Source: Epinephelus fuscoguttatus (Eukaryota; Chordata; Actinopteri; Perciformes; Serranidae). From it: a stretch of 64,000 nucleotides of DNA. The stretch lies in NCBI RefSeq assembly GCF_011397635.1, contig NC_064756.1, forward strand, positions 18,628,907 to 18,692,906, given 5' to 3'. This document shows positions 4,346 through 27,890 of this stretch, piece by piece (within the stretch, counting starts at the first letter, position 1; each line of letters opens with the position of its first letter). Position numbers and translations under genes: made by a program. The notes below the pieces were generated by a model that did not search any database, was not told the origin of the DNA, and saw only the letters and a program-made list of their open reading frames with translations.

Positions 4346-5160
4346 GTCATATACTTTTCAGACAGTAGACAGGACACAAACCCAAAGTTCTGGTGTCATG
4401 GTCCTGCCCTTTGTATGCCCAGCCACTTCCTTTCAAAGCCTACAGGGTACATGAATGTAGTGTGTGTCATTACCTGAGAGAAACATTGTCTCTGAACATA
4501 ATCCAGGCAGCAATTATATTGCCACATCAGGTAATTAAGAACTCAGTTTAGTAACATGCAGACGTTATTTCTTGGAGACAGGTTGCTGAAGAATCAATGT
4601 GAAGAACGCCTTTACACATAACGAGCAATTCCTTGCTAACATTACAAGGTGCTGGCACTGTGTTGGATGTTGTCTTGTTGAGTTGGAGATTCTTGCAGTC
4701 AATGGGAAGCGAAAGAGGTGAGAAAACGATGAAGGAAGGAAGAGGAACAGGTAGTGGGAAAAGGTGATAACAAGTGGTAGGAGACGTGAAAGGATGAAAA
4801 GAAAACAAGATGTACGCCAGAGAACAAAAAGAATGAGGAAAATGGAAGAGACAGTTCTACAATTGATGCAGATATGGGTCAGACAGTGAACAAAGTCAAA
4901 ATCTCATTTCATTCTCCACTGACTTTTAACGTTTCATTTATTAATATTCAATGCCCAAATGCATGCCGGGAAAGTTTGTGACTAAAGAGATGTGTGCATG
5001 ATGTGTTTGGGAAAGAGAGGGACCATTTTCAGCGACTCTGTGTCAGAAATAATTAACTTTCCTTCTCTTCTGCCTCCTTTTTTTTGCATTCGCCTCTCTC
5101 CTCTCTTTATTTTCAACCTCCCCTTCTTCACCTCCGCCCCCATCACTGTCTCCATATCCA
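4346..5160. other. No gene seen; ends in a polypyrimidine tract
   Basis: I recognise no gene here. From about 5058 the plus strand becomes strongly C/T-rich up to 'ccatatccag' at 5161. That is a strong candidate branch and polypyrimidine region for the acceptor of the next exon. Confidence 0.5.
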
Positions 5161-5192
5161 GGCGTCGTGCCCTGTGGGGGTGGGGTTCTGTG

Positions 5193-5360
5193 ATGGTAAC
5201 CATGGTCCCCGGCAGCCGCTATGTCTGCAGCGCTCATGCTAGAGAGGAAGACGCCACGAACGACCGAGAGGAGCGAATTTTAGCCGTGTTGGGCATCATC
5301 GGAACCATCCTCAATCTCTTGGTGGTCATATTTGTCTACATCTACACTTCCGTCACCTAA
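5193..5360 (+). CDS. tunar-like: TUNAR-like micropeptide 1 (55 aa)
   Basis: A 55-residue product with a charged N-terminal half (EED-ATNDREER, residues 18-28) and one hydrophobic segment (29-52) ending GTILNLLVVIFVYIYTSVT. The C-terminus is nearly identical to that of TUNAR (human GTILNLIVIIFVYIYTTL), a tail-anchored ER micropeptide reported to act with SERCA in calcium handling of neural and beta cells. The exon probably starts at 5162, after a long C/T-rich tract ending ccatatccag. The first ATG (5193) has purines at -3 and +4. A second in-frame ATG at 5202 (accATGg) would give 52 aa. Any upstream exon would be non-coding. Family assignment rests on the C-terminal motif and size; function in fish is inferred. 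Confidence 0.85.
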   Translation: MVTMVPGSRYVCSAHAREEDATNDREERILAVLGIIGTILNLLVVIFVYIYTSVT

Positions 5361-5440
5361 GGTTTTCTGCAAGACTTGAACAAGAGACGTTGGCACTGTC
5401 CCCAACTTTTCTTTGCACTGCCACCCTCTTCTTTAAATAT

Positions 5441-5560
5441 TGAAAGGGTTCGGTTGTTCAGAGTGAGCAATATGATGTGAGGATCATTGGCAGTGTGTTC
5501 ACCTGGATAGTAGCCATATTTATCCACACCTGCATCACTGCCTATCCAATAAGACTGCTT
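5441..5560 (+). pseudogene. Possible decayed TUNAR-like copy
   Basis: In one frame after a stop near 5440 the translation contains VRIIGSVFTWIVAIFIHTC. It aligns residue by residue with the membrane segment of micropeptide 1 (IIG, V, IF identical; many conservative changes). It has no ATG and lacks the LNL and FVY signatures. It may be a relic of tandem duplication or a chance hydrophobic stretch. Confidence 0.25.
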
Positions 5561-6058
5561 TTCTCTAGACTGCTAACGGTAACAGGGACAGAGCTGCAGG
5601 TGGAGTCAGCTTTTCAAGACAGATCCACGTCAAATGACTATTGACAGTGTGTCCAGTTTGCCAGTGGTCACATGTTTCTGCATTCATATGAGTGGGACAT
5701 AGCACTTCTGTGACTGCTTAAGTGTGTTGCATCTTTGTCCCATAACATGTAAAAGTGTCTTTGAACAATCAAGCTCATTTGTGAGAGTTAAAATATCATC
5801 ACTGCCAGGTAAATTTATTGAAATGGTTTGACGAACAAGGCAACTTTGAGTGAGCTTGACCAAATAAGAAGTTAGCGAGATATGCCATACACTGCTGAAA
5901 CTATTTAAAGGGACCAAAATTGCCAAGAGAAATACTAATCCATAGGCCTATCTACTGCTGAGCACCCTTAAAATCTACTTGAATAGAACATTTATCCACT
6001 CACACCTATTGCTAAATACCAGTTTCTGTAGTTAATAGAGTGACTCAAAGGGTTTTAC

Positions 6059-6181
6059 ATGGACCTAATGTGTCCACACCTAAGCACACCAGAGGAGAGA
6101 TTCCTGGCTGTGCTGGGAGTCATCGGCATCGTACTCAACCTCCTACTGCTCGTCTTCGTCTATATATACACCTCCGTCTGA
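6059..6181 (+). CDS. tunar-like: TUNAR-like micropeptide 2 (40 aa)
   Basis: A 40-residue frame starting MDLMCPHLSTPEERFLAVLG and ending GIVLNLLLLVFVYIYTSV-stop. The last 28 residues match micropeptide 1 (EERILAVLGIIGTILNLLVVIFVYIYTSV) with only conservative changes, including the shared EER before the membrane segment. It is shorter than usual ORF cut-offs and lies in another frame of a longer chance ORF. The ATG at 6059 has a weak context (T at -3), so the true N-terminus may come from an upstream exon. Possible acceptors are 'tttctgtag' ending 6031 and 'cacaccag' ending 6090. The latter would splice directly onto the conserved block. It is either its own gene or an alternative or second coding unit of the micropeptide 1 transcript. 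Confidence 0.75.
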   Translation: MDLMCPHLSTPEERFLAVLGVIGIVLNLLLLVFVYIYTSV

Positions 6182-7815
6182 TATATGTGCTCATACACAA
6201 TATCCGCCATGAGAAAATCCTGCCACACCTAACAGCACCTGTACCTTAGAGCATAGTGTTCAGCCACACCTGTATATAATGTACCTAAGCACATCCTAGC
6301 CAAGTTGGAGATTATATGATATTCTAAGCAGGTTGCTGTGCCTAATAATATGGTGATACTCTAATCATAACATGTTGAATGGAGGGTGATGAGGGAATTA
6401 AAAGGCAAGTGACATCCAACAGGAGATTTGTTCACAGACTAATTTATGATAGAAATATACTTTAAGACTTTACCTTTTTTGTATAAATTTGTGTCTTACA
6501 GTTGGTGTTTTTGTAGATGCAGTGCTCCTTCACATATCTGCATGATGACATGTTTACTTATTATAATCTTTAACACACCTTGACTTAAATACCTGATGTA
6601 AAGACTGCCATTTCTTACAGTTATTCTGTTTGTTCTACATGCTTATTGATGTTGTAAACACCCAGACATGGAGCTGGATGCTGTTGCAGCTCTGCGCACC
6701 TTCAGAGCTCTCTCTGTGGAGGGTTGGTACCATGGGATAATGATCTATTTTTTGGTGTCATGTTTCTGTGATTGGATCTGTAAGGCCGGCGAGGAGCAGC
6801 ATCAGCGAGGGCAAAGCGTGGAACTGAGACAATGTCACACAAATTCAGACAGCGGCCTGTTGCAGTGTGGAGTGCCTGAAAAAAGAGGACATAAAACCTC
6901 TGCACAAGGCCTCTCCATCTGTCTTGAAACTCATAAAGGCACAAAAAACTCTCCAGGACTGGGTTACAGCGTTTCCACTAGAGCTGCATGTCACTATGGA
7001 TATGATTTTAGGTTCAAGCACTGGGCCTGTAATGGAGGAGCAAACCTAAATGCAGCTGACACGCGAGCAGAGAGGACTGGCCTGAATCTACACATGATCC
7101 TCGTCATTCTCTTCTCCACCAACAAGCTGACGCCGGAGAAGACATAGTACTGAGAGGACCCACATGAGCTTCTGCTGTCGTTTCACATAGCACAATACTT
7201 TTATATATATGCACATGCACGGACTTCATTTCATACACTGTCAGTCAGACATTTGGGGGTGAAGACAAAAAGAGGAGGCCCTCACGACCAACTCTGACTG
7301 CTCACTTTGACATGTTGGCTTGTGAGAACTGTGAATTGTGAGAGGTACTGAGATTTTGATAACCATTGCATATAAGATTCCTTCTTCCATAGTGTATTAT
7401 GCTCTTAGCGTTAGCAACAGTTTATTATTGAGGGTTTTGTTTGAATCCAAAAGTCACAGTCACTACAGTGGAAAATGTTTGGTATGAAAGTCAACGAATA
7501 ACTTTGGTTCTGTTGGCCACTGTCTATTTTTATAAAGTGTAGAATAGTACAGATAAGTATTTCCATGGCCATGACTACAGAATGCTGGATGAACAAATGA
7601 CCGCAATTTGCCTGCAGGAATGATAAGTTTTACTATGAATGATCAGTTGCTTTGTTTAGTTCCAAAACAGCAACCAGGACAAATTACAAAGGTACATTTT
7701 AGTTACTTGCATTGCTTAAGAAAAATGTCTTTCTCACCATCTCACAAACATCTGTACTTCCTTAGTTGAGGACCATTGTTAATAAATTGTATTAGCCTTT
7801 AACCCTAACCCTTTA
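6182..7815. other. No recognised gene; two overlapping open frames
   Basis: Frame 6668-7147 is open for 159 codons. A second plus-strand frame is open from about 6833 to 7049 and reads protein-like (DIKPLHKASPSVLKLIKAQK). I recognise neither. No clear splice sites or domain were seen, and codon use does not favour one frame. The rest of this stretch is ordinary AT-rich sequence. Treat these frames as unproven. Confidence 0.3.
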
Positions 7816-8399
7816 GCCCCGTTTTCACCAAGCAGTACCGTACGGTTCACTTCAGTTCGGTTTGCTTTTTTTCCGTTCCCATTGTGAAAAGTTGTGGATG
7901 GTACCAATGGAACTGTTCTGTGCCGTCCCCATTTTTGGTCCCCCCTCTGTTGGGGTACCTAGCACACAGATCTGGTACTAAAAGGTGGAGCTGTGAACAC
8001 TGCAGGCTGCTGAATGGTCAATAGAGGACGGTCACTCTGCTCAGGGCTGAGTTGTGGCTGGTTTTGAAGCTCATGTAACCACTGTTCATACTATGGAGAG
8101 TTTCATTAGAAGACTGTAACTATAAATTAAAGGATGTTTTGCTGCCTCTCACAGCAGCTGGAGTTGGAGAAAAAAATAACTTAATCCACTGGGCCAACTG
8201 CAGGCAACTTTTAAAGTGGATCGTTAACTTGTAATGTTACTTAATGCATGAGTTGACAACGTGAATCAATCAACACACCTTAAAGATGACATTTAAAAGT
8301 ACTGTTTGCAGTGGAAACACTGGGGTCTAGGTACCATGTCTGAAGGGTTACTTTTGGTTCCGAAGGTACCATACCGAAAGTGTTTGGTGGAAACGGAGC
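7816..8399. mobile_element. Harbinger-like MITE, TTA target duplication
   Basis: The left end 'gccccgttttcaccaagca' and the inverse of the right end (tgtttggtggaaacggagc) form imperfect terminal inverted repeats. They are flanked by TTA at 7813-7815 and 8400-8402. A 3-bp TWA duplication is typical of PIF/Harbinger. There is no coding capacity. Confidence 0.8.
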
Positions 8400-8402
8400 T
8401 TA

Positions 8403-9842
8403 ACACAACATGCTTACTCCCCAAATTTTATGTAACATTTACCTATTTCTGGAAATCTTAAAGCAAAACTAAGGCTCATCACATCTTAGGCTTCTCTTGA
8501 TTATGGTAACATTGTACTTACCAAAGTCACTGATAAGATTAGGGGACATAGTGGCATCACACAAGATATATGATCATGTGGCCACTACTGTTTCCTGCTC
8601 CCTTGACTTATTTTTAGCATTTCCACATTCTTAAATCTCAACCAATAGTTCAGAGTAGTTCAACTATTAAAATAAAACCCAAATTTTAATAAATCATTAC
8701 TCTTATTTAGCATTAAATAGGCTAACCCTTATGTCTCCCAAAAGCCCTCAATATCTAAATCTCAAACCGGTCCTCACAAAGATAGAAAGAGAGCCCCCCT
8801 ACACACACACTTGCTACTTGCGTCCTCATGAATTTAAGTTTACACCATCTTTCAGCACACATCAGGAGATTCGACCGTTAGCACGCTGAGATCGATGTGA
8901 CTTGCACATTTACTTCCTGTCACATCTAATAACTGTACAGTGGAGTTTGTTGAGCTAAATCCATTTTAAGAGTGCACCAAAGCACAGTGTGAGCCACCTT
9001 TGGTTTGCCAGACATCTGCTGTCAGACTGTGACAGTCGAAGCCACAGCTGTGCAGAAACGCATTCAAATAGACTTTGAAATAACTAAAAGTAGGCTACTG
9101 AGGATATTTTTGGTTCACTTCGTGCCACCTCTAAAAGGGTCACTTGATGTTGGCAAACAAACAAACCAAACAAGCAACTGTTTAACTCAGGTTTACTAAG
9201 ATACTGGCAGAGGTTTTAAAATACCACTTTCCAATAAAGGCCCCTTCATAAAGGGTTTATAAGTTGTGGCTAACAGCTATATTAATGTTGATAAATACTT
9301 TGCTAATGCTTTACTTTAATGTTATATTAGTTTAAAGCCATTAATAAGAACAAGTCGTAGGTTGCGCTTTGGCTGGTGTTTATCCGCTTTGTGATAAGGC
9401 ACACTTTTATAAATCATTAATTTTAAGTAATGTCTTAATTAGTGGTTAATAATTTATTCACGAATGCTTCATAGATCCGTTTGAACCCAGTGTAAATGAT
9501 TTATTAACCAATTGCTAAATCAATTTAACTGCAGTAGTTAATTTTGCAAAGACACTGTATGCGTTTAACAAGCAGACTGTACAATTCCTGTGAAGATGGA
9601 AGTTAACACGCTGTCCCTGAGTGTCCAAAACTGATGCTAGAGAACTACGTGCAGGACCACTGACTCATTGGTAATATATGGTGCCTCACTGGAAAGTGAG
9701 ACCGAATTTAGCAAAGTGGGTTTTCAAAGGACAGCGGTAAAATCATCTCTCTCTATTTTCTACACAGAAACAACTAAGACATATATCAAATGTTTTTAAC
9801 TTCACTGAAATCAACAGGCCTAAATATGGGACGGGAACTGCC
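8403..9842. other. No gene seen
   Basis: AT-rich sequence. The part 9230-9550 ('taaatcattaattttaagt', 'ataatttattcacgaatgc') reads like an old fish interspersed repeat, but I could not set its ends. Confidence 0.4.
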
Positions 9843-9843
9843 C

Positions 9844-10126
9844 ATTGGTTCGACATCCCATTGTTCTGACCATATTAAACTCATTGTTCCGAAGTCCGTT
9901 CCGAAATCATCATGATGCCCTGTGGTTAAGGTCTGGTTAGGTTTAGGCACAAAAACCACTTGGTTAGGGTCAGGAAAAGATCATGGTGTGGGTTAAAATG
10001 AAAAAGAAAGTGACAAACACATAAGCCGTGAGACTGCTCCGCCTCAAGCCGGTCGCGGCGCACCATACGCCCGCCGAGAGCCGTTCAGCTGCGCAGACAG
10101 TCGGACTAATGGGATGTTGAACCAAT
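9844..10126. repeat. Inverted-repeat element
   Basis: 'attggttcgacatcccatt' (9844-9862) and 'aatgggatgttgaaccaat' (10108-10126) are inverse copies matching at 18 of 19 positions. They bound a 283-bp block with the 'ggttaggtttaggcacaaaa' phrase seen in other repeats of this window. It is probably a small non-autonomous DNA element of unknown family. Confidence 0.7.
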
Positions 10127-10384
10127 GGACTGTCGAACCAATGACATGGACCCATGTGGGACAGGCCTTTAATTCCTTTCACACAAAACTGTTGCTCAGC
10201 AAAGACCGAGTAATACAATCATATTGTTGATTTAAACCAGTATGAATCTTACTTGTTTGAAGATTAGGCTTCAGATGATATATCAGTTATGAATCATTCA
10301 TTTGATCTAGCTCCGACAGACAGCGCATCAGAGAGTGAGTGAGTTAACGGCACTCGAGGATTACGGCACCTTGCATATCAGCCC

Positions 10385-10725
10385 AGTATCACTCCGAAGT
10401 CGTCGAAATCCGGCGCTTGGGCTTTTGGTGTCAGAAACCAATGACAAAGGCGTCCTTTAACGTTGGCATGATACCCGGCAGGTCAGCGGTAGCAGGGGAA
10501 AACGCAGCTGGCAAGGACAAAAGTTAAGGTGGCAAAAGTCCAATTGGGGCAAACATGAGGGGTGGTGGATGGGTCCAACAAACACCAGCTTTCACCCAAG
10601 CGCTGTGTTCACATCACATAAGACTCTAAAGCCAAACCCTATTCTTTTTTTCCTGAACCCAACTACGTGCTTTTGTTGCCTAACCCAACCATGTGTGTTT
10701 GTGGTTGACATGACCAAAACGTTAA
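10385..10725 (+). repeat. 350-bp dispersed repeat, copy 1
   Basis: Shares ordered blocks with 13985-14335: 'tcactcc(g/a)aagtcgtc', 'gcttggg', 'tttaacgt', 'gcatgata', 'gggtc(c/t)aacaaacac', 'ttcaccca', 'aaagccaaa' and 'gtgcttttgtt'. No transposase or termini were recognised. Confidence 0.75.
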
Positions 10726-10899
10726 TATGTGACGAGGTCAGAGTGAGAATGTGTTGCTTTATCCTGTTAAAACAACTCTCTCTCTCTCTTAATTTTTATG
10801 AAATACCCTTTTGATTCTTTTGATCTAAGGACCTTTACAGACTAAAGAAATATAAATAACTTACAGGGTAATCGTGGAATGGACACAGTTTGAGGTAGC

Positions 10900-11045
10900 C
10901 AACAACCTGGTTTTATATATTATTTATCCTATTTATCCGAAGAACTTCTATAAAAAATGCTTGGCAACCAGACCGGGCTTCTAATTGAGACAGGCCTTTA
11001 TTTGTCAAAATGTGTAGCCACACCGGGCTAGTAAAAGGGACTTTT
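10900..11045 (-). repeat. Dispersed repeat related to 44460-44790
   Basis: On the minus strand it reads 'cccttttactagcccggtgt', then 'ctacacattttgacaaat' and 'ggtctggttgccaagc'. The same phrases occur on the plus strand around 44475, 44500 and 44740. The family was not identified. Confidence 0.55.
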
Positions 11046-12940
11046 TCGAGCCTTCAACATATTTAATAAATAGCAATTGCAAAAACATGAAATAAAAATC
11101 ATTGCAGATTTATAGTCTTTATTATAGTTTTCTGTAGTCTTGGTCAGGGAGGAATTGCCATCATGTCCGCAGTGATAAGCACTGACTGATCTGTCCAGAG
11201 CAGCTTTTGATAAGTGGACCTCGCTCCGTGGCTACAGTACCTGGGATACATGTTATTGTGTGTTTTGTATGCAGTCCATGTTTTCAGTTGAGATCTGTTT
11301 TAACATGACACACTCACTGCCAAACAGACCAACGACAGGGGAGAGCCTAGAGGGCGAGTCCTGACCATCTGCTGTCCCAACAGACATTCAGCCACTTCCT
11401 CAAAGTACACACACACATACACACATACACACAGCATGGACATTTTTTTAACAATGCAACTCAAAAGTCTCCCTCACACTTCAAAATACACACATTTTTA
11501 CATTGTTTTTTACATTTCTTTGATGCCTGTTTACTGTATTTTATCATTTTTACACGGTCAACAGGCCAACATGTGCACACACATCATGTTATCGAAACAG
11601 TACTCAATGCCAGAGGAAAAACAGGTGCATCAAGGTACACCTGGGACTCCAAACCACTGCCCCAGGCACAGAGTGTTAACACAAAACACTGAAAACAAGA
11701 AAGCAATGTTCAAAGACAGGCAAATGCTCATTCTGAGTCTGGATTCAAAAAATGTTCTTCCTCTGAGTCTGAGCCAGCCAGCGACTGTGTTATGTTCAGC
11801 CAAAGCAAAGATTCCCATGTTTTTTCATGATGCATGAGCCGAATTGATTTTTAGCCTGAGAGGGCATATTGCACACAGACTGTCTGAGACTAGACAAGAG
11901 GAGATAATGTGGACAAGAGGATCCCTAAGATATGTTAATGTTATTTCAGTGCAACAAAGCTGAAGAAAATTGAGTCATCTCAGATTTTGACCAAAATGAA
12001 GTCTGAAAAAAAGAAAAACACTTATTTGCCTGTGAAGGTTGAATTGTTACTGCCTTGTTTTGTACAAACAGATTCCACTAATACAGTGTTTTCTGCGTTA
12101 TCTGCTGCACAAGGCTGAGAAGAGGTACCTTTGAATGCAAATTATTCCATGAGCAGGCAGGTCCAGGGAACTGCCAGGTGTAACAGAAAGCCTGAGAAAT
12201 TAGCCTTTGACCAAAGTTTTGTGTGACATGTTGATTTACTGACTAACATTCCAGGACAGTAGCTGCTACAGCACTAATAAAATAAACTGTAGCTTTGAAA
12301 TGGGAGATAACGTTTGCCTCTATCAGCAAGAAATAGGTATTTTATTTTAATAAGGAAGTTACGTCCTCTAGAATATGTGTGAACATGTCGATTTCTGATG
12401 AGAAACAGTTTGTTATGATCCTTGAGAATTAACTTTGAACAAATGCTGTGAGATCTGGTGTGCTTTCATGTATTGTTTATATATATATGTATAATGTATA
12501 GTTAACAGTAATGCCAATAAAAAAAACACTTTCAGAGAGTTTTGTTGTTCTTTAATATAAATAGCAAAATCTTAAACCTGTTACTCCTGTTACTTGTTAC
12601 TTTAAAACATAGCTTTGAAGTGAGCAGCTGAATTTTGTTTTCTAAGATGTGATAGGCCACAAGCTGTCTTTCAGTAAACTATTCCTCCCACACCTGTCAG
12701 TCAGGTTCAAAGTGCTTGCTGCAGGCTTTGAATGGCTCCGTTTGAACTTGGTGGTGGTTATAAGGGCTATTGCCGACTGAAGATGACAAGTCCTAACCAC
12801 CAGAGCACCCATGGGCATATCCATAGTCCATGCTTAAAATTTTACTGTACAACAACAGATTCATTTTGTTTCAAATGTCTGCTCTTTTTACCATGAACAA
12901 ACTTCGTTATTGCCTAATGGATTCTCAACTTGTCGTATTG
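11046..12940. other. No gene seen
   Basis: A short CA run lies near 11407. The open frame 11436-11837 has no recognisable domain, splice sites or conserved motif. Nothing else is supported. Confidence 0.4.
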
Positions 12941-13119
12941 GACCTGGGTATGAATCCAGCCCGTTCTCACTCCCAACTTGTTAACTACTACCGCTTTGTA
13001 AGTGGATGTTGGAGTCAGACACCGACACAAAGATACACCTTTTGCAGCGGTATGATATGCGCTGGGCAGTGGCTATTTCTGGTGCCACAGGCAACTACCG
13101 TATTAGGAAAAGCTAAAAA

Positions 13120-13345
13120 GTCAATTTAGGGCAGGCAGCAGGGAAGGTGGATGGGTCAAACAGACACTGGACTTTCACCCTCAAGCCCACTGTTCATTCC
13201 CTGTTTGGAACCAAAAGGTGTGTGTTCTAGTATGTGTAGCATACCACCATAGTTACATGTCACATGTAGTGGCATCACGTTAGTAAGAACTGGACCTATT
13301 TTAAGTTAAACCACGATGTTTATGTCTAAACCTAACCATGTGCTT
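13120..13345 (+). repeat. Partial copy of the 350-bp dispersed repeat
   Basis: It shares 'gtggatgggtcaaacagaca', 'ctttcaccc' and the 'aacctaaccatgtgctttt' phrase with the copies at 10385 and 13985, and is otherwise more diverged. Confidence 0.5.
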
Positions 13346-13984
13346 TTGTTGTCTAAACCTAAAGAGATAAACATAAGTCATAAGTTTATTTTGAAAAGCA
13401 AATACATGTAATGAGTAGCATGGAAATCCAGACCCAAATCTAGAAAGAGTTAGGGTCTGGCTATGGGTAATGAAAAAGGCCCAACCCGAGGGGCGGCGCC
13501 AAGCATGCATTTGAAAATATCACTGCACGCAATTGGATAACACTACGACCAATCAGAACAATACACGGGGTGACGTATGCTTAGCTACCAGCGGAGCTAA
13601 CTGGTAGATTAGACTTTTGCCATATCCGGTCGGCAAAACAGCAAAAACGTCCTTCTTGCAAAGGAAAGATTCAAGCTCTTCTGTTCCTCTTTTAGAGAAA
13701 AAGCCAAGTCTAACTCATTCATTGTAGCGGCCAAAGCCGTTTAAAACAACTGGGGTTCATCCGTAGCCATCTTGCAATGTTTACTGACTGATTCCATCGC
13801 AGTGCTGTCGTCATCTGTTTAGCTCGCCTCTGGCCCGCCTATATCAGATACACCGATGTGATTGGTGCAGCTCGGCTCCAACGGCATGGGTAATGAGCAT
13901 CATTACTGATTGCCAGAGTGACTCGCTGTGCAAATTCAAATTGTGCTCTCACGAGAACTCTGAAATGAAAGTTTATTTTGAATA

Positions 13985-14335
13985 CAAGCCAACCAGTCTC
14001 ACTCCAAAGTCGTCTCAATCCAGTGCTTGGGCAGTGATTTGCAGCGTCATATACTAACGAAAAAAGCTGTCTTTAACGTCAGCATGATATGTGGTTTGTC
14101 ACCGCTATACTTTAATGGTGCTCGGCGGCATCAGGGGGAAACGCAGGGGAACAAGAATGAAAGTTGAGGCGGCGAAAGTCTGGGTAGAGTGGGTGGGTGG
14201 GTCTAACAAACACTGACATTCACCCAGGAGAGTGGTGTTCACGCCCTGTAAGGTTATAAAGCCAAATCCTGTTCTTTTTTACTAAACTCAACCTTGTGCT
14301 TTTGTTTCCTAAACTCGACCACGTGCATTAGTTGT
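13985..14335 (+). repeat. 350-bp dispersed repeat, copy 2
   Basis: Ordered similarity to 10385-10725 over the whole length. The preceding block 13425-13975 looks like a different non-autonomous element, because 'gaaatccagaccc' near its start and 'gattgccagagtgactcgc' near its end recall fish DNA-transposon ends. I could not fix its boundaries. Confidence 0.7.
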
Positions 14336-14799
14336 TGGAGGGGAAAAAAAACATAAATTTGCATTGTTGTACTGACGTAGTGTGTTTATTTTGAAATAGC
14401 TTGTATGTAAACAATAAATTTCCTGTGAAAATGGAAGTGTATTTTGAAAGAAGACAATGAATGTAACAAGCAGAACATGACATGTCGTCTGAGAACGTCA
14501 ACAACCAACGCACTCAGGGTACCTTGCACGCTGTATATGGACTTGGAAAGTCCATGACCAAATGTTGATATTAGGTCGGAGTAAGAATGTGTTGAACAAG
14601 TGTCAACTGAGATGCCATCAGTGAATGCACAAAACCAATGCAGGAGGCTTCCTGGCATTTCACATTTTAACGGTAAGGTCCACTGACAAAGTGGCAGTAT
14701 TTGACTAGTTTGGCTGTGAACGGGTGTAAATCCAGGAGGTTGTTTCAGCGTCATCGGTTTTGTAAATACATTGTGTTAACAACACAACAATATATCAAC

Positions 14800-14970
14800 A
14801 TTACACAGATAATGTACTCTTGAATACTTAAGTATCTTAAAAGCAAGCAATCCAGTACTTTAACTCAAGTAAAAGTTTGTCTGAACGACTTTCTGTATTG
14901 GAGTAATATTTGATCAGGAGTATCTACACTTTGACTCAAGTAATGGAGTTGTGTACTTTGTCCACCACTG
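14800..14970. repeat. Fragment of a common fish hAT-like repeat
   Basis: 'tactttaactcaagtaaaag', 'tttgactcaagtaatgg' and 'tgtccaccactgg' are phrases of a widespread teleost repeat whose ends read CAGTGGTGG. Related text occurs at 19326-20126. Only a fragment is present. Confidence 0.55.
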
Positions 14971-16200
14971 GCTAAAAGGTTGGGAAAGGCTGAAATGCTT
15001 TTAGATGCTCAGGGAGTGCAGGATAGAAGTCAGACATGCCTGACATTTACAGCTCTTGTGCCTGTTTTGATCATTAGTTGTAATTCTGCCCACCTGGGGA
15101 TGTGTTCTGGAAAACTGGATTTCTAACCCAACAAAACTCGACTTTGTGTTTGTATCACTGGGGACTTCATCCTTCTGCTCCGATGACTCCTGCCTTAAAA
15201 TATATCAAGGAGCCTGAAAGTACAAAAGTAAATCCTTTTAGCTGACACAATAATAAAGCTGAGTGGCCCAACCCTTCTGTTTTCTTTTTTAGTCTACTTG
15301 TGTATTCACATTTTTACTTTTTCTCTGAATTCAACTTGAGTGCTCGGTGCTGTTGTCCTCTTAAGCTCCTCTGAGGATTTTTACTCTTGTTTATTCTTCC
15401 GGCTTGTCAGTGGGATGCATCCTAATTTCGTGTTGTCTTGAATGCGCTATCAGTTTGAAAACAAGGTCATTACCCACAGAGCAGAGTTCCTTTAAAGTCG
15501 TATAGCTGCTCTGGCAGACCTGTGCTGTTGTGTGCAGCCTTGTTCAGCCAGCCAGATAAACTAACAGTGTGTCCTCAGGCGCCCCATGAGACAGCCACTG
15601 ACCTGGCTAATGTGGGTGGCTGCCCTCTGTGCACACACATGCACACGCACACACACACAAATGCATTTATAAAAGACTCACCGGTCTATTCTCCAGCAAG
15701 GATCTGACTGCAGCTCAAATGTATAATCTAGGATGATTTAATAATCTAGTGTCTCTTTCTTCTCTTCCTGTTCTCCCGTACCCTCTGCACTCTCTGTACC
15801 ACAAACATTTATGATCTCTTGCAGCGCGCTGGTCCGTTGTTTGCCTTGTTCCTATTTTAGTCTTTAGTTAGTTTGCCAGCTCAAGCGTGAACCACATCCC
15901 TGGCTCTGAGCCTCAAGCCACTGTCACTGGAACAAGGAAAGATGTTTTATGTAAACAGTAATATAATGTCCTACTTGCCTGTTGAGTGTAACAAGTCCCT
16001 CAGAAGTTCACCCAGCCTTGAAGGAAAATACCCACTGAGTCACAGAGTTATTTGTTTACAATCTCTTGCAGATGCACCTGGTCTGTGTTTAGGCACAAGC
16101 TCCAGTGTGTCCACAAAGATCACAGCCATTTACATTTCACTATCAATCTGAATCACATTCCCACTGGGAGGATTCAGGAAACTCATAACAATATATCACT
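14971..16200. other. No gene seen
   Basis: A short CA run lies at about 15636-15660. Open frames here carry no recognisable motif and no convincing splice sites. Confidence 0.4.
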
Positions 16201-16214
16201 TCATTTTACTTATT

Positions 16215-16364
16215 GAAGCTTTGGTTAATAAGGTTCCCACCATCTCAGCTGAGGACTTTGAAATCATGCTCAATTCCAACATCAGCGACCTGTTGATGGT
16301 GACCTACCTGTCTAACCTCACCCAAGCACAGATTGCTCTTAATGAGAAGCTGGTCCTGCTCTGA
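16215..16364 (+). pseudogene. eif3f: eif3f C-terminal fragment (pseudogene)
   Basis: 49 codons plus a stop encode a near-perfect C-terminus of eIF3 subunit [21 protein letters not shown], then [20 protein letters not shown], then KLVLL-stop. Residues before this in the same frame do not continue the protein, and no MPN domain or other eif3f exon lies near. It is therefore a 5'-truncated copy, probably retroposed, or a stray terminal exon. The frame is intact, so the copy is young or has been conserved by chance. No poly(A) tail follows; a LINE fragment begins about 40 bp downstream. Confidence 0.8.
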
Positions 16365-16405
16365 AGGAATTTCATTGAAGTGATTCATATTTAATTTTTG
16401 TATGT

Positions 16406-16555
16406 CTGAAACTATACCAGATTATCAGGACACTAACCACCTTCATAAAGAACTCCATGAGAATGTGGAAGACGACCCTAGAGGCCAACTCAAAGCCGAT
16501 TGCCCAAGTCAACATCAAATGCAGCATATACCAAGGGGATGCATTGTATCACTGT
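16406..16555 (+). mobile_element. LINE reverse-transcriptase fragment (R4/Dong-like)
   Basis: One frame reads MRMWKTTLEANSKPIAQVNI then KCSIYQGDAL. This is the conserved 'WKT-LEANSK...IKCGIYQGDALSP' block that I associate with R4/Dong-type fish LINEs. It is broken directly after QGDAL. It is only about 150 bp and non-functional. Confidence 0.75.
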
Positions 16556-16654
16556 ATAATTGTCTTTACAAGAAAACAAAAATGATGAGGTGACAACTTT
16601 GACATCGATATCAATATTGCTGTCTGTCCATAGGGACTTGGCTTGGGAACAAGT

Positions 16655-16910
16655 CCCCATCCGGACCAAGTATGAAGCATGGACTAGTAGCTGGACAGAT
16701 GCCAATTCGCCTCCTGGGCATCGCTGAGGTGTCCTTGAGCAAGGCACTGAACCCCCAACTGCTCAGAGTGCCTGTCCAAGACAAACCCCTCGCTCTCACA
16801 TCTCTCCATTGAATAGGTCCTGTTTGTGCACGTGTGTGTATTTCAACGACAACAGAGGGTAAAAATAAATCGAATTTCCCCTCAGGGATTAATGAAGTAT
16901 ATCTTCTTCT
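16655..16910 (+). mobile_element. SINE/LINE 3' fragment
   Basis: 'aattcgcctcctgggcatcg', 'gtccttgagcaaggcactga' and the terminal 'aatttcccctcagggattaa' with 'tgaagtata' match a common teleost SINE/LINE tail ending in short T/C repeats. Confidence 0.7.
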
Positions 16911-17130
16911 TCTTCCCAGCTATAGGGAGGATATGAGGATGTGACAGTCATCATCATCGTCATGATTATCATCACTATCATTAGGACGGCATTGTCTTTC
17001 TTTATCACTGATGACATATGATGATGTAATGTTTGGGTCCTGACTGTCTTTAAGTGCTTGCCCTCATTCCAAATTACGTATCACTCATGAAACCCTCAAA
17101 CATGGAGCTCAGTCAGGACAGCTGGGACTG

Positions 17131-17143
17131 ATGGACACACACA

Positions 17144-17180
<37 letters not shown>
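17131..17180. repeat. CA microsatellite
   Basis: A CA run with one CG interruption. The surrounding sequence to 17580 holds nothing recognised. Confidence 0.9.
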
Positions 17181-17182
<2 letters not shown>

Positions 17183-17579
17183 GAAGGAGAGATAATAAGA
17201 GAGATAATAGATATGTGAGGATGTGAGATTTCTTTTTTTATGTGGTCCCTTAAATGAAGATAACACATTCACATGTCCCTGGGGTCTCATTATACTCATG
17301 TAAACCAGAGTCCCTGATCAACTGATTCATCGCTTCTTTCACTCCCTCTGAGGTTTGCTACCAATATTCCAGGGAGGGAAAATGGACCAAGACCAGGGTG
17401 ATCCCCGAACATACATACAGTTATTATTCCAGTGAGCACAAGCTGATAGGCAAGAAACCGTTACGTAGAGTACAGAGATACATATGACCGCTGTTTTAGA
17501 GAGATGTGAAATCAACATTGTGATCATTTTGGAGGATGCAGTTTGTGATGTTGTTGATATGTATCGCATCATATAGCTG

Positions 17580-18060
17580 TTATTTGTGTTATTTATTGTA
17601 AGCTAATTGTGTCGTATAAGTTCTGAGTCCAGTTTATTTCTATTTAGCGTCATCTTTTAGTTGCTGAAATTAGTTTATCTGTCTTTTGTTTTCTCTCCAC
17701 TTTTAGTGTATCAAGCAGATTTTGTTTGGGGTTTTCTCTTATGTTTTTTGCTCATTCATTAGGTTTTTTTTAATTTTGATCTTCTCACCGAATGTGTCGT
17801 GTCTTGTTTACTTCTTGTGTGTGTGTTTTCCGGCCTTAGTGATCGTCTCCCCGCCCTGATTTGCTCCACCTGTGTGTGTTCACCCTGCTCTCCTTGTGTT
17901 CTTACTCTGTCTGGCCTTCTCTCTTTGCCAGTTTTGTGAGCTTTTCAGCATTGTTTCTTGATATGATTGTTTCTCCGATATTTTCCAGACTGTCACCTGT
18001 GTGTGGTGTTCTGTTTTGGCAAATAAAGACTTTAACTTTTCATTGTGTGTGAGTCTTACT
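17580..18060 (+). repeat. LTR-like T-rich fish repeat
   Basis: A T/TG-rich block ending 'ggcaaataaagactttaac', resembling in composition and ending the repeat at 2188-4345. No target duplication was found. The following 18060-19085 holds no gene I can see, apart from CA runs near 18855. Confidence 0.45.
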
Positions 18061-19258
18061 GTTGGAGTTCATCCTCTCCCAGCACCAGTGTGTGTGTGTG
18101 ACAGCTGGTGCGATTCAACGGCATCAAAAATTCTAAAATGATCATACAGTTGAATCAACACCTGCCTAAACAGTTTAAATGAAACAAAACAACACTTGTG
18201 AAGGTATGATTTATTGCAGCACTGGTGGTTGTCCCCCGATATCTGCAGAGATTTGTCATCATTTGGTAGATGTCCATTAAAGCACATGCAGAGGATATGA
18301 ATCTAACCTTTGTACTTTCAAATAATGAGAGGGACTTTTGATTTAATCCTTTTTTTAATTTATAATGGATAGAATAAGAGATTATCTCCAGCAGTCTCCA
18401 GAGTCTGAAGCTGATTTTCTCACTACTTTACAAGCTAATCAAGTCAAATTATAAATTCCATTGTCTAAACTAGTGGTATTCGATGATGAATGGTCTGAGG
18501 GAGCTTCACCACAACCCTAACTAACAGCTCACCTCTGCTCTGCCCCCGGGTTCACCTGTAATGAAGCCTCAGTGGATCTCTATTATCAAGGCTCACCAAT
18601 GGCAACCACTCTCCTGTCTGCTTTAAGCATGATGGATGTGATTCAACACTGCACTGTGTGTCTGTTCATCTTAATAATTTTAAGCTATGTAAAAGGTAAA
18701 CTAATTCCCTACAGGAAACAGTAGCTGGTAGTTACAGTCAAACATCTCTACTGTCTTTATCTCCTTAAATAGCTTTCAGTTTCCACACACACATCCTCAG
18801 ATACAACATGGCAGATCTTATCCATCACACTTAAAGACACAGCAATAATTAGAACACACACACACACATACACACAAATAAGAAGACACCGGTGACGTCA
18901 ACACAAAGTATTTGAGGCCTCTTCACTCCCTTAGCAATACACTGGAGACACAGAAACACAGACAGAGGCATCTACGAGCCAACGCAACCTAACACAGAGC
19001 AGCTTCTTGGCCTGTTGTGACAGTCTGTGCCATTAGCCGCACAGCCAAACAAAACAGCATCCCTTTATTCTCTTGTTTCTTACAGACCTGTGGGTCTCTG
19101 GAGCTCTGGGAGAGGAGGATAAAGAAGACTTTAAACTCAGAGAGCTGCTGATGGTGCACAAAGTCCTGCCAGTGAATATTGGTTTCTATTTGTTTTGGGA
19201 CTGAACAGGATTAAAGTTGAAGTAGTTTTTGCTTCGTTCTGAGTTTGAAGGGTGAGAA

Positions 19259-20485
19259 ATGGAGCGACCCACGCCAAAGGAACTGAGGAATAACAGAGGA
19301 GCGAGAAACAGCAGAGAGGTAAGACCAGTAGTGGAAAGTAGATTTACTCAAGTAATGTTATACTGTACAATTTTAAGGCACTTGTGCTTCACCATTTCCA
19401 TTTTCTGCTACTTAATACATCTACTTTACTACAGTTCAGAGGGAAATATTTCACCTCTCTAAATGTATTTGATATCTTGAGTTGCCTTGAAGATTCAGAT
19501 TCATAGTACTAAATATTATCAATAATATAATGATTATTTATTAGGATTATTAAGATGTTGAAGTAGCTCCACCTTCACCAGCTGCAACATTAGTCATGTA
19601 GTGATGTACACATTCATGCATCAGTCATTATAATCTAGCAAAGTGGGCCATTCTGCATACAGGGGACTTTCTTTAGTGTATTTTGATGTTAATAATTTTG
19701 CATTTTATAATCTTAAATGCATGGCAATCATTTGTAACAGAGTGCGTCCACTTTTCTGGTCTTTTCATAGTATTTTTTGGTCATATTTTGATTATATTTT
19801 TCTTCTCTTTAAATCTCCCTTGATTTTTGTAATACTTACTTGTATTTCATTTTCCTTTACAATATTTATGTGAAGCACCAATACACAAAAGCAACCCTCT
19901 TGTGTGTGAAAACCTACCTGGCAATTAACTGAATTCTGATTCTAATAATTCAATTACATTTTCAATTCAGTTTTATTTATGCAGCCCAGTATCCAAAAGC
20001 ACAATTTGCCTCAGAGGGCTTTACGGCATACGATATCCCTAAGTCCTTGGGCCCTCATGGCAGATAATACACGGTGGTATTTTACTCACCAGTAAGTAAA
20101 AGATCAGAGTACTTCTACCACCACTGCATTAGCCATAATGTGTTTATTACACATAAATTGCAGATGGCAGATTTTCTGGACTATAGACACCAAAGAGAAC
20201 CAGCAAGTCTTACATTGTGTTCTGTGAGTGTTGTCATATCTTTATCAATGGCGCCATCAGGTGGTAGAAATATGTCAGTAACTCCTGCCTTGGATGCATT
20301 TCAATTGTATCCACACACTGCACATCTCTCTCTGTCTCTTTCAGGTGATCGAGCCTGTCCATGTGCTCCCTCAAGCGGCCAGATGTAAAGTGGACCTTGA
20401 ACACATTCTTGGCATTGCGGGTATCGTGGGCACAGTTCTTAACCTCCTGGTCGTGGTGTTTGTGTATCTTTACACACCTGTCTGA
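19259..20485 (+). CDS. tunar-like: TUNAR-like micropeptide 3, two coding exons (66 aa)
   Basis: Exon A probably runs 19086-19318: acceptor 'cttgtttcttacag' ends 19085, the ATG is at 19259, and the donor is GAG|gtaaga. It encodes MERPTPKELRNNRGARNSRE. Exon B starts at 20345 after 'ctctgtctctttcag' and joins in phase 0. It encodes 46 residues and stops at 20483-20485. The product is a basic N-terminus, a linker (VIEPVHVLPQAARC) and a hydrophobic tail (41-66) ending GTVLNLLVVVFVYLYTPV. The tail matches TUNAR and the two upstream micropeptides, with divergent N-termini as is usual for tail-anchored micropeptides. The intron is nearly filled by a hAT-like repeat. The acceptor at 19085 implies a further 5' exon. 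A possible poly(A) signal AATAAA is at 20824. Role inferred from TUNAR: ER membrane, calcium handling. Confidence 0.8.
19326..20126. mobile_element. hAT-like repeat filling the micropeptide 3 intron
   Basis: Left end 'cagtagtggaaagtagattt' and right end 'cttctaccaccactg' form CAGTGGTGG-type inverted ends as in fish hAT elements. Inside, at about 19965-20060, lies another common repeat ('caatttgcctcagagggctt'). The left end is 8 bp past the splice donor at 19318. The 8-bp flanks match poorly, so insertion boundaries are approximate. Confidence 0.65.
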
Positions 20486-20823
20486 CATGACTAAACACAG
20501 TCTGTACGGGTGGATTTACAGTGAAGCTGTTGATTGTTGGATATGGGACATCACCGAATTGATGGGTGGATGAAAGGACAACTGGAGGGAAAGGACAGGA
20601 TGCTCTGAACACAGGAGAGTGTTTTAGTAGTTAAGCAGGCTGATTGAATCAGTAGCATTATCTTACATTGTTGGTGAAGATACGACTGACATATATGAGT
20701 GTGTTTGTAACTGTGTTTAGACCCCAAAGTCCTTTTCCATGAGTTGAGGTGACCAGCATGTTGTTGTAAGTGCAGTTAAAGGTATGTATTCGTTTTCTGC
20801 TCTTTGATGCTATTGTTTTTGAA

Positions 20824-20829
20824 AATAAA
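20824..20829 (+). terminator. Candidate poly(A) signal for micropeptide 3
   Basis: First AATAAA downstream of the stop at 20485. It would give a 3' UTR of about 0.35 kb and make the gene tail-to-tail with bloc1s3. There is no transcript support. Confidence 0.4.
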
Positions 20830-21059
20830 TTTATAACCAAAAAATGAGAAAATTCCTCAAAATTATTCCGCTTATCTCCACCTTTGCTTTCATCCATTAG
20901 GGCAGCAGCCATTGGATAGTGTGGGTGTTACATTACACACGTTGGCCTCCTTGACCTATCACAGAGGACCCAAAAAGAGCAAAGACATAAAAGGATATGC
21001 CTCATAAAAAGACCAAAGTGTAAGAAGAGAGCTGTAAGCATGAGCTGACAGGACATGCT

Positions 21060-21065
21060 TTTATT
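21060..21065 (-). terminator. bloc1s3: Candidate poly(A) signal for bloc1s3
   Basis: TTTATT on the plus strand is AATAAA on the minus strand. It lies about 230 bp past the bloc1s3 stop, a plausible short 3' UTR. Confidence 0.45.
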
Positions 21066-21293
21066 TCCTTAACTTCTACTCCTTACAGAAATATCCCCAG
21101 AGCTCCAGGCACAAGGACAGAGAAACCTGACAGATAAATAGTGTGTGACTGTTCAGTATACATATTTGTTCATATGCATGGGTGCTGTTCGTAAACACTG
21201 AAGTAAAGCTAACATGCTTTTTCTTCTACTCTCTGATATTCATGGAAAATATTCCCATGATGATATTTTACACATAAATATTGATTTGATTCT

Positions 21294-23205
21294 TCAAGGT
21301 GCAGGAGCAGTACAATTATTTGGATTATTGATGTTAATATCAGGCAGTATTTGACAGCTGGTGATGATGTCGATCTTCTCGGACACAGCCTTGAGGTCGT
21401 CCAGGATTAATCGGATGCTGTGGGAGGCGTTGATGATGGCGCTCTGCGACGTATTCAGCTGAGCTGTTGCACTTTGCACCTTTAAGAAAAGCAGTCAGAG
21501 TCAAAAAACTTTTAAAATGAAGACATTTCAACCACAACCAATCAGCTGTGACAAGATGCTTGTCATAAGATTGTTGTTAATGATACAAGTGTTGCCACTT
21601 TACATGTACTGGCATGTAAAATAGCAATATGATTTCTATCTATTCTAATGTCATGTCTCTGACATTATATCATAAGCTTACTCTGTCACAGCCACCCTAG
21701 ATGTTTGAATTACAACAGGTTTGCATCACACCCTCTATGCAGCATTATTCTGATTACTTCTCCTCTGCATAGCAATATGTTGTTCCCAAATATTCTTTTC
21801 CTGTTCTACAACACTGGAGAATAAGTACAGTGGCTTCTGTTGTAATTATGTAGTATAAGGGGCATTTAGCAAGATGTTATATACCTAATTTATATATGTA
21901 ATGATAAATGTCCAGAGTCAAACACATCTACTTACTTCTCGAGTGGCACTGCCATAAACATGCCGTAGTGTCTGTGCAACGTCAGTAAACAGCCGGCTGT
22001 TAGATTCCTGCAGCTTCTGTTGTAGAAGGGTCTCACCTGGAAACAGAACGACACACTGAAATAACTGAGAGCTAAACTTAAATTTCATCGTTCACTTCTC
22101 CGTCTGATTAAAGCCATCAGTGACTAAACACTGATGAAATGTGATGGGGAAAAAAAGCCAAACACTGAAATACACTGGTCAAAAGTAATCAGTTATCATT
22201 GCAACAACAAACACTCCACAATATATGATCTTAAGTAAGGCTACCCATATAGTAATAATAAGGATAGTTTAACCGTGGAGGGCTTTGTGGCAAGATACTC
22301 TTAACTCAAAGGTCAAACTACCAGCTTTATCAGAGCTATCAAACAAATTTCAAATGCATCACTGGAGCTGATGATCCACCCACTGATGCAGATCATGAGA
22401 AACCAGTAAACGGATCTCTGAGTAACAAGTATTCTGTCACATAATGATCACTGGAATATCTATTATACTTATTATGTTATATGGCAGTGGTTCCCAACTG
22501 GTCCAGCCCCAGGGTCCAGATTTCTGGTTTGGCAGTAGTTCAAGGTCCACACAGTTACATACATTCAGCATCATACTTGGGTTTGGACATGTCGTCAAGC
22601 TAGTCTGCTGTGTCTGTTAAGTAGCTGTCCATTTGTCACTAACTCTACAGCAGGAAACAGCATTTCAAATTAAAAGCTCTGTGCCAGAAATTCACTGTAC
22701 TTAAAAATAAATAGTGTTTTTTATGGACTTTGCCGCAACTCACCAGTTTGGGAACCACTGTTATATGGTTTTCCTCACCTTGTGGCCTGTGTGTGGGACT
22801 TGGCCTGTCTTCCACGATGGACTGTATATCAGGATGGTCTCTAACTACAATAAGAGGAGGCAGGTCTCTCCTGAGTATCTGAGTGCTCTCCTGGCTCAGT
22901 GAGGATGCTCGGTCCGCCTGCTCCTCCTCCTCACCCTCACTGTCTGTTTCAGACGCCTCCCCAGGAACCTGACAGCACCCAAGATCACAGACAAAGCAGA
23001 CTGCAGGTTAATGACAGGAGAGGTGACGTATTGGTCAATGCTGCTGAACACACTTTTATCTCTGAAACACACACAGAGCATGCAACACAACCTTGGCTCC
23101 GACTGTGACAGTTTGGGGAGGTGGCATGGAGGTGATGTAGACTTCATCATCAGAGTCTGTCTCAGAGGCCTCGCCCTGCACCACAATCTGGTAGCTGCTG
23201 GACAT
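21294..23205 (-). CDS. bloc1s3: BLOC-1 subunit 3 (four coding exons, 196 aa)
   Basis: Subunit of BLOC-1, the cytosolic complex that sorts cargo from endosomes to lysosome-related organelles such as melanosomes. In humans its loss causes Hermansky-Pudlak syndrome 8. Exons in coding order: 23205-23092, 22968-22779, 22036-21936, 21479-21294. Phases join cleanly (0, 1, 0) and introns are GT-AG, though the first donor (AAG|gttgtg) is weak. The acidic N-terminus carries GEASETDS twice (residues 11-18 and 41-48) and then LRRDLPPLIVVRD. Human BLOC1S3 has the same pair and a DLPPLVV motif. The helical C-terminal half contains ETLLQQKLQESNSRLFTDVA and SHSIRLILDDLKAVSEKIDI, ending CQILPDI, as in the family. 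Length is close to human (about 202 aa). It is head to head with trappc6, as in human 19q13.32. Confidence 0.93.
22485..22760. mobile_element. hAT MITE in bloc1s3 intron 2, perfect 8-bp duplication
   Basis: Ends CAGTGGTTCCCAACTGG and CCAGTTTGGGAACCACTG are inverse repeats of classic hAT type. They are flanked by the identical 8-mer 'ttatatgg' at 22477-22484 and 22761-22768. It is 276 bp with no coding capacity, and starts fewer than 20 bp from the exon 2 donor. Confidence 0.95.
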
Positions 23206-27100: not shown

Positions 27101-27890
27101 TCTAGGGTTGGCTTTTACTTTCACCTTTGTCGGCAAGCTTGTTTACAAACTGTAACTGACTGTCTTGCATAGTATACCGTCAAGGTCCCAACAGATTAGG
27201 GATCGACGATATGTTTTCTTCAGAGCTCATGCCAATACCAGTTATTATGAAATAGAGATACCGACAGCCGATATTTACAACCGATATATGTCTGCTGTAA
27301 AAATCATAGCTGACACAGAATTTAAAAAAAAGAAACACTGACAAAGCACTACATTCAAATGCAATTAAGCATATATTTATTCTGAGAACTTTTCCAATGA
27401 AACAGTACAGGGAGCTGCCAGCAGCACTTTGGAAAAAAAAAAACTTTGACAAGTAAACAAATGAATAGAAAAAAGTGCTCCCTGAGGTTTAAAGTACGTG
27501 AAATAGTGAGTAAAACACTGAACAGTTAATGAATATGCTAGCTAAATAAAAACAGATAATAAAAAATAATAATAAAATAAAATAAAGGAGAGCTTAATTA
27601 AAAGCCAGGCTAAAAAGGTAGGTCTTGAGTTTGCTTTAAAGGGCCTAGAGTGGTACATGCAGGCAGTGAGAAGCACGCCAGGGGCAAAACAGCACCGCTA
27701 AGGAAAATAAAACTGTATATCGGCATATTGGTGGAAAAAAAATCACAGGTGCCGATAACCCCAAAAATTCATAATATCGGCCCCGATAATCAGTCAGGTC
27801 GATTATCTGTCGACCCCTAAAACAGATCGTTTACCTCTTCTTAATTTTGTCTTGCCAGGTAAGTTCCAAGTGGTGATCCAGAAGTTATGA
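24148..27890 (+). CDS. trappc6a: TRAPP complex subunit 6 (six coding exons, 163 aa)
   Basis: Bet3-family subunit of the TRAPP tethering complexes in ER-Golgi and Golgi traffic. Exons: 24148-24243, 24550-24617, 24717-24834, 26379-26462, 26546-26639, 27859-27890. All introns are GT-AG and the frame is continuous. The order of family motifs is complete: MADESLFDFLHMEIV start, VLESMGFRVGQGLIERLTRD, FKDELDVMKFICKDFW, NLRTNHQGTYVLQDNKFSLL, APKYLAFSCGIVRGALSNLG, VVTAEVS, and CKFQVVIQKL at the end. Features such as LFDFLH, SVLESMGFRVGQ and QAPK favour TRAPPC6A over 6B, as does the bloc1s3 neighbour; zebrafish annotation may use a 6b-like name. A 5' UTR intron is likely (23866-24145). The last exon codes for only 10 residues. 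Introns 3 and 5 hold DNA transposons. Confidence 0.94.
25067..26322. mobile_element. DNA transposon in trappc6 intron 3 (TTAA-flanked)
   Basis: Ends 'ttaaaggataactt' (25067) and 'aagttatcctttaa' (to 26322) are inverted. The similarity continues inward: 'tttttcaaactggaccc' against 'tccaggttgaaaaac', and 'gactgatgtgaac' against 'gttcacatcagtc'. The outer TTAA on both sides suits a piggyBac-like TTAA target, although the terminal bases are not typical. A partial copy ends near 34662. It has no transposase frame. Confidence 0.8.
27197..27819. mobile_element. hAT element in trappc6 intron 5
   Basis: Left end TAGGGATCGACGATATG and right end inverse (TAGGGGTCGACAGATAATC) are hAT-type. The 8-bp flanks are 'caacagat' (27189-27196) and 'aaacagat' (27820-27827), a 7 of 8 match. 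It is non-autonomous and ends 39 bp before the last exon. Confidence 0.9.

Follow-up and report, generated by a model that had tools for sequence, protein, structure and literature searches.

A cluster of three TUNAR-family micropeptide coding units in Epinephelus fuscoguttatus, probably derived from an ancient TUNAR duplicate

A 64,000-nucleotide (nt) stretch of the Epinephelus fuscoguttatus genome (NC_064756.1, positions 18,628,907 to 18,692,906; hereafter the window, whose own numbering is used throughout) contains three neighboring plus-strand frames, all within 15 kilobases (kb), that end in the C-terminal tail of the TUNAR micropeptide family. We refer to these frames as units 1, 2 and 3. 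The presence of three TUNAR-family tails was confirmed, and we read the cluster, with a probability of about 0.66, as an ancient duplicate of TUNAR that expanded locally into three units coding for tail-anchored micropeptides that most likely bind pumps of the SERCA type.

The shared tail consists of 28 residues and occupies positions 5271-5354 (unit 1), 6095-6178 (unit 2) and 20399-20482 (unit 3), always on the plus strand. Units 1 and 2 have 21/28 tail residues in common, units 1 and 3 have 19/28, and units 2 and 3 have 16/28; the C-terminal helix form common to all of them is GxxGxxLNLxxxxFVYxYT. Coordinates and strand were verified for each of the three frames, which a first-pass annotation of this DNA had described as plus-strand frames with a common tail and a likeness beyond mere hydrophobicity. 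The latter claim also stands. When single tails were used as queries against the six frames of the 64 kb, the other two tails scored 90-111 and the next three places scored 27-41, while the best scores in 60 dinucleotide-preserving shuffles were 43, 38 and 41 for the unit 1, unit 2 and unit 3 queries, respectively. All three units exceeded the curated cut-off of the Pfam family PF21954 (TUNAR; 27 bits), with 54.7 bits for unit 1 (entered as a 120-amino-acid (aa) genomic open reading frame (ORF)), 40.1 bits for unit 2 and 35.6 bits for unit 3 (entered as a 63-aa genomic ORF). A profile of the three tails found only units 1-3 above the threshold of 25 in a six-frame scan of the window (96.3-100.3), a circular result in that the profile had been made from the same three tails. 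The protein sizes of 52/55, 40 and 66 aa for units 1, 2 and 3 are those of short proteins, as in the TUNAR family.

Three weaker places were not counted as a fourth, decayed copy, and their translations lack the fixed residues of the family. The places at 12533 and 57326 scored 41 and 38 with the unit 1 tail and 38 and 40 with the unit 2 tail, and that at 18605 scored 29 with the unit 1 tail. The plus-strand place at 57326-57409, which reads KRILAV..., slightly exceeded the shuffle maximum in its likeness to unit 2 (40 versus 38), probably by chance. Long duplicated flanks were not found when 4500-8000 and 18500-22000 were each searched within itself, where only short repeats appeared, and an Rfam search gave no match at the gathering threshold.

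Synonymous change between the tails was extensive. Among the 28 tail codons, 12 were synonymously changed between units 1 and 2, 13 between units 1 and 3, and 10 between units 2 and 3. By the Nei-Gojobori method, nonsynonymous divergence (dN) was 0.12 and synonymous divergence (dS) 3.2 for units 1 and 2, and the other two pairs were saturated. Judged from these comparisons, units 1-3 look like kept coding units. Protein database searches, with the window's own database copies (P0001, P0062) excluded, returned 51 relatives of unit 1, nine of unit 2 and three of unit 3, so that conservation is not limited to one unit. A species name was attached to 20 of the 52 unit 1 hits, which span percomorphs, polar cod, trout, shad, catfishes, carps, a characin, tarpon, sturgeons and elephant shark. 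The elephant-shark protein P0052 carries a TUNAR tail (66.7 bits with PF21954) but bears the UniRef name 'HHIP-like protein 1', apparently a misnomer. Every hit had no fewer than 13, 15 or 11 five-letter words in common with the query of unit 1, 2 or 3, respectively, compared with 9, 2 and 0 for human TUNAR; human TUNAR was therefore hardly findable, and it is no evidence that tetrapods are missing from the hits. The counts of relatives for units 2 and 3 are probably too low.

A tree was built from the 28 tail columns of 68 rows, 29 of them different, and the program warned of the few columns. Unit 2 and its nine relatives formed one clade (100/98), and unit 3 grouped with its three relatives and with the database entry of the window itself in a clade of five rows (100/99). 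Units 2 and 3, each in a clade of its own, therefore predate the divergence of their respective relatives. Hydrophobic ORFs of small size occur often, and the three frames could in principle be such chance products or dead copies. The shuffles, the Pfam scores and the relatives found for every unit rule out a chance origin, and the synonymous change likewise contradicts this reading, which we regard as extremely improbable.

Unit 1 is a 52-aa ORF at 5202-5360 on the plus strand, TAA stop included, or a 55-aa protein if read from the ATG at 5193. Both ATGs lie in a strong context, with a purine at -3 and G at +4. The Met of an M-[VLIF]-[PTH] pattern at the place of ATG 5202 was present in 52/52 unit 1 hits, whereas 12 of the 47 hits that extend as far as the place of ATG 5193 have a residue other than Met there, and ATG 5202 is therefore probably the ancestral start. 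The coding exon would begin with the segment 5162-5192 (plus strand), behind a putative acceptor AG at 5160-5161 that scored 3.6 in a simple home-made weight table, a score reached by 3.2% of all AGs. This segment is open in frame ahead of the first ATG and reads RRALWGWGSV. Among the 32 unit 1 hits with at least 11 residues upstream of the conserved Met, LWGWGSV was present in 10 and WxWG in 20; the sturgeon and tarpon hits lack the WxWG segment. RRALWGWGSV may be a functional element of the 5′ untranslated region, or an N-terminal extension giving a longer protein form, which could be likened to the 65-aa form of mammalian TUNAR discussed in PMC8758570. In a tblastn comparison with the window for a further coding exon ahead of unit 1, 12 of the 65 proteins, 11 of them unit 1 relatives, gave only weak matches outside the three units. 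The best of these, at 17437-17387 on the minus strand (E 0.005 for P0043), was not accepted as an exon.

Unit 2 is a 40-aa ORF at 6059-6181 on the plus strand, TGA stop included, with an in-frame TGA upstream and five codons between that stop and the ATG. In all nine relatives, 31-38 of the 40 residues were identical (78-95%). Directly upstream of the ORF, identity was only 7/29, 0/17, 0/6, 1/3 and 5/26 in the five relatives with such sequence.

Unit 3 had been annotated as a single frame, which does not hold, as the 63-aa ORF from 20294 starts inside an intron and a coding exon lies upstream. The first coding exon (MERPTPKELRNNRGARNSRE) extends from 19259 to 19318 on the plus strand and is followed by the donor GTAAGA from 19319. 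The second, at 20345-20485 on the plus strand with the TGA included, carries the TUNAR-type tail and follows an acceptor AG at 20343-20344 that scored 10.6, a value attained by 0.07% of all AGs. Splicing leaves an open frame of 66 aa, in which the GTG codon at 20345 gives Val, and an in-frame stop is the second codon upstream of the ATG. The Epinephelus coioides protein P0063 matched unit 3 in 21/21 residues over 19259-19321 by tblastn; its match to the second exon was 91% by BLASTP over 96% of the query and 41/47 (87%) by tblastn. The splice sites agree with this structure, and unit 3 is, as judged by the match to the E. coioides protein, its own two-exon gene. An AATAAA lies downstream at 20824-20829 on the plus strand.

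Units 1 and 2 are separated by 698 nt. For three of the nine unit 2 proteins, the longest contig is exactly as long (4511, 4646 and 2028) as that of a unit 1 protein. The chance of three such equal contigs was about 3e-5 by simple resampling from the 32 unit 1 values under 10 kb. In three other assemblies the two units thus seem to lie on a common contig, contig identity being taken from equal size, and tight linkage of units 1 and 2 in other fish is likely. The unit 1 proteins P0004 and P0021, which belong to the 4646 and 2028 contigs, read into intron-like sequence; these contigs therefore look genomic and show linkage at most, not a shared mRNA.

As far as the sequence allows, one mRNA for units 1 and 2 is possible. 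A bicistronic mRNA would make both peptides and leave only unit 3 as a separate gene, a tentative proposal that we place clearly below even odds. The short spacing and the equal-sized contigs speak for it, as does the position of the first AATAAA/ATTAAA after the unit 1 stop, which lies beyond unit 2 at 6397-6402 on the plus strand. This last point is weak evidence, because no such hexamer occurs in 41% of 698-nt stretches drawn at random from the window. By the same simple home-made score, no strong acceptor was found within 5361-6058, where the best value was 1.6 (7.7% of AGs score as high), compared with 3.6 for unit 1 and 10.6 for unit 3. There is also a precedent of paralogous small peptides on one mRNA in Drosophila, as reported in PMC9681215. 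The genomic look of two of the three contigs argues against the proposal, and so do the eight further ATGs between the two ORFs and the T at -3 of the unit 2 ATG. A weak first start that would permit leaky scanning was not found at ATGs 5193 and 5202, both of strong context, unlike the non-optimal first start reported for sloth1 (PMC9681215). These strong unit 1 starts and intervening ATGs would make translation of a second cistron inefficient, which favors separate expression of the two units, unit 2 using either its own promoter or an alternative acceptor through which an upstream exon would be joined to unit 2 and unit 1 skipped. Weak candidate acceptors at 5446, 5568 and 6038 are consistent with the latter route, and the lack of a strong acceptor in the intervening segment by the home-made score counts against it. 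We place separate expression a little below even odds.

Each unit has one C-terminal hydrophobic segment, with a best 19-residue Kyte-Doolittle (KD) value of 2.57-2.99, which ends 6-8 residues from the C-terminus. AlphaFold models of unit 1 and of the unit 3 protein from Epinephelus, both built on alignments that mixed in members of the other units, contained a helix at residues 12-54 and 38-63, respectively. Mean predicted local distance difference test (pLDDT) values were 95-97 in the helix core but only about 50 over the first 20 residues, with overall means of 75 for unit 1 and 71 for the Epinephelus unit 3 protein. The hydrophobic 19-mer and the predicted helix agree with the single C-terminal membrane helix of the TUNAR family, and the modeled layout probably corresponds to tail anchoring with the N-terminus in the cytosol. 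According to PMC8758570, mammalian pTUNAR is a transmembrane protein of the endoplasmic reticulum (ER) that co-precipitates with SERCA2 and speeds the removal of cytoplasmic Ca2+, and the same peptide, under the name BNLN, reportedly binds SERCA3 and reduces Ca2+ reuptake. The two accounts differ in the direction of the effect on Ca2+. By analogy with mammalian TUNAR, the fish peptides most likely reside in the ER and act on SERCA, and the pump-binding part is likely the helix common to all three, with its invariant small residues, the Asn of LNL and the FVYxYT end.

The neighbors of the cluster suggest a region of the human 19q13 kind. A BLOC1S3 coding exon lies at 22648-23007 on the minus strand (PF15753, E 4.7e-14). 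Head to head with it, a TRAPPC6A/B-type gene of several exons occupies 24148-27887 on the plus strand, as found by tblastn with human TRAPPC6A and 6B; its first-exon ORF alone matched nothing in Pfam or among solved structures. A ZFP36-type gene with a tandem CCCH zinc finger is located at 38684-39955 on the minus strand (PF00642, E 9.2e-19), its best solved chains being butyrate response factor 2, with 122 bits, and tristetraproline, with 109. We take human BLOC1S3 and TRAPPC6A to be adjacent at 19q13.3, ZFP36 to be at 19q13.2 and TUNAR to be at 14q32, with TCL1 and C14orf132 presumably its mammalian neighbors. The human chromosome 14 and 19 regions are, on our assumption, products of the early vertebrate genome duplications; a literature search found no paper on these duplicate regions. 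TRAPPC6A and BLOC1S3 are tabulated together with APOC2, NKPD1 and MARK4 in PMC11940612. The mammalian TUNAR neighborhood was not found in the 64 kb, where BLOC1S3, TRAPPC6 and ZFP36-type genes were recognized, not every frame being identified. From these neighbors and the human map positions, with the adjacency of BLOC1S3 as the main argument, the cluster is therefore probably an ancient duplicate of TUNAR and not TUNAR itself.

Several observations weigh against an ancient duplicate that expanded into three units. The PF21954 alignment spans only the C-terminal part of the 48-position profile (positions 18-47, 20-47 and 21-46 for units 1, 2 and 3), so whole-length TUNAR homology was not found, the matches starting at profile position 18, 20 or 21. 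Unit 3 had only three other proteins as relatives, two of them 72-74% identical, and the unit 1 relatives were not resolved in the tree with its few columns. Given that tree, the ancient-duplicate reading rests on the neighbors and the human map positions. The zinc fingers resemble those of ZFP36L2 (butyrate response factor 2) more closely than those of ZFP36, and the TRAPPC6-type gene scored slightly better with TRAPPC6B than with 6A; human TRAPPC6B, ZFP36L1 and TUNAR are all presumably on chromosome 14. Alternatively, this locus could be the true TUNAR ortholog in fish, either relocated or with N-termini that have diverged. The unit 1 tail is identical to that of human TUNAR in 21/28 residues, some relatives are automatically named after TUNAR in the databases, and a second fish TUNAR gene was not found, though the search could not be expected to find one. 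The BLOC1S3, TRAPPC6 and ZFP36-type neighbors disagree with the human TUNAR location at 14q32, and zebrafish megamind is also called linc-birc6, an alias that points to another locus. Megamind is TUNA according to PMC6347452. We consider an ortholog at this locus unlikely.

The window also contains mobile-element sequence. A retroelement reverse-transcriptase fragment lies at 1076-1618 on the plus strand (PF00078, E 9.5e-14), and a 289-aa frame of a Tc1/mariner-type transposase at 53973-54839 on the minus strand (PF01498, PF13358). A 92-aa BED zinc-finger frame at 40856-41131 on the plus strand (PF02892, E 9.1e-9) possibly belongs to a hAT-type transposon.

Under the ancient-duplicate reading, TUNAR would have been duplicated long ago, probably when whole genomes were duplicated in early vertebrates, and the TUNAR-related gene left at this locus would have expanded locally into the three coding units. 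Each peptide would have a short variable N-terminus, probably cytosolic, and one C-terminal helix in the ER membrane, and this shared helix would bind Ca2+ pumps of the SERCA kind, as mammalian pTUNAR does. Differing N-termini together with separate expression could subject the three forms to different regulation, and unit 2, just behind unit 1, may come from the unit 1 mRNA. The first-pass annotation had proposed a local TUNAR-family set with divergent N-termini, and our results support this; its further suggestion was that the peptides may tune SERCA or other membrane partners in different tissues. A stronger version, in which fish possess a second TUNAR locus that mammals lost and a single mRNA of units 1 and 2 makes two SERCA-binding paralogs as a vertebrate counterpart of insect sarcolamban, whose peptides act on SERCA, appears rather unlikely to us.

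Few micropeptides have been linked to calcium handling in neurons and islet cells, and those of the TUNAR type belong to them. If a fish family with a common helix and varied N-termini exists, comparison of its copies could separate the role of the helix, the supposed pump-binding part, from that of the N-terminus. If the linked pair is indeed made from one mRNA, it would be a rare vertebrate case of co-produced paralogous micropeptides.

The literature searched (titles and the beginnings of abstracts, most subscription journals lying outside it) contained no description of TUNAR-like copies in fish, in agreement with the earlier view that the cluster is undescribed. Unit 1 alone is not new, because two of its relatives, from Nerophis ophidion and Paramisgurnus dabryanus, are already named 'protein TUNAR-like', the Nerophis protein being 93% identical to unit 1 over its whole length. 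That name is absent from the unit 2 and unit 3 hits. Database protein names were attached to none of the nine unit 2 relatives and to one of the three unit 3 relatives ('hypothetical protein', Epinephelus), and both units seem poorly catalogued.

Known systems resemble the cluster to different degrees. Like TUNAR itself (pTUNAR or BNLN, the 48-aa ER microprotein; megamind in zebrafish), the units belong to PF21954 and combine a short ORF with a C-terminal helix and tail, but they differ from it in an N-terminal half that does not align to the profile, in other neighbors, in three local copies and in the extra exon of unit 3. The regulins (phospholamban, sarcolipin and myoregulin) and DWORF, described as small ER peptides that act on SERCA in PMC8758570, are alike in supposed action only; none of them was among the Pfam matches of the units up to E 1. 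Sarcolamban, pri/tal and Sloth1/2 of Drosophila are paralogous small peptides made from one mRNA, according to PMC9681215; paralogous small peptides are adjacent here as well. The sloth1/2 spacer is 5 nt (PMC9681215), compared with 698 nt between units 1 and 2, and the unit 1 start context is strong. Relative to these systems, the cluster is not a new kind of system, and it adds at least two little-catalogued members, units 2 and 3, to the TUNAR family.

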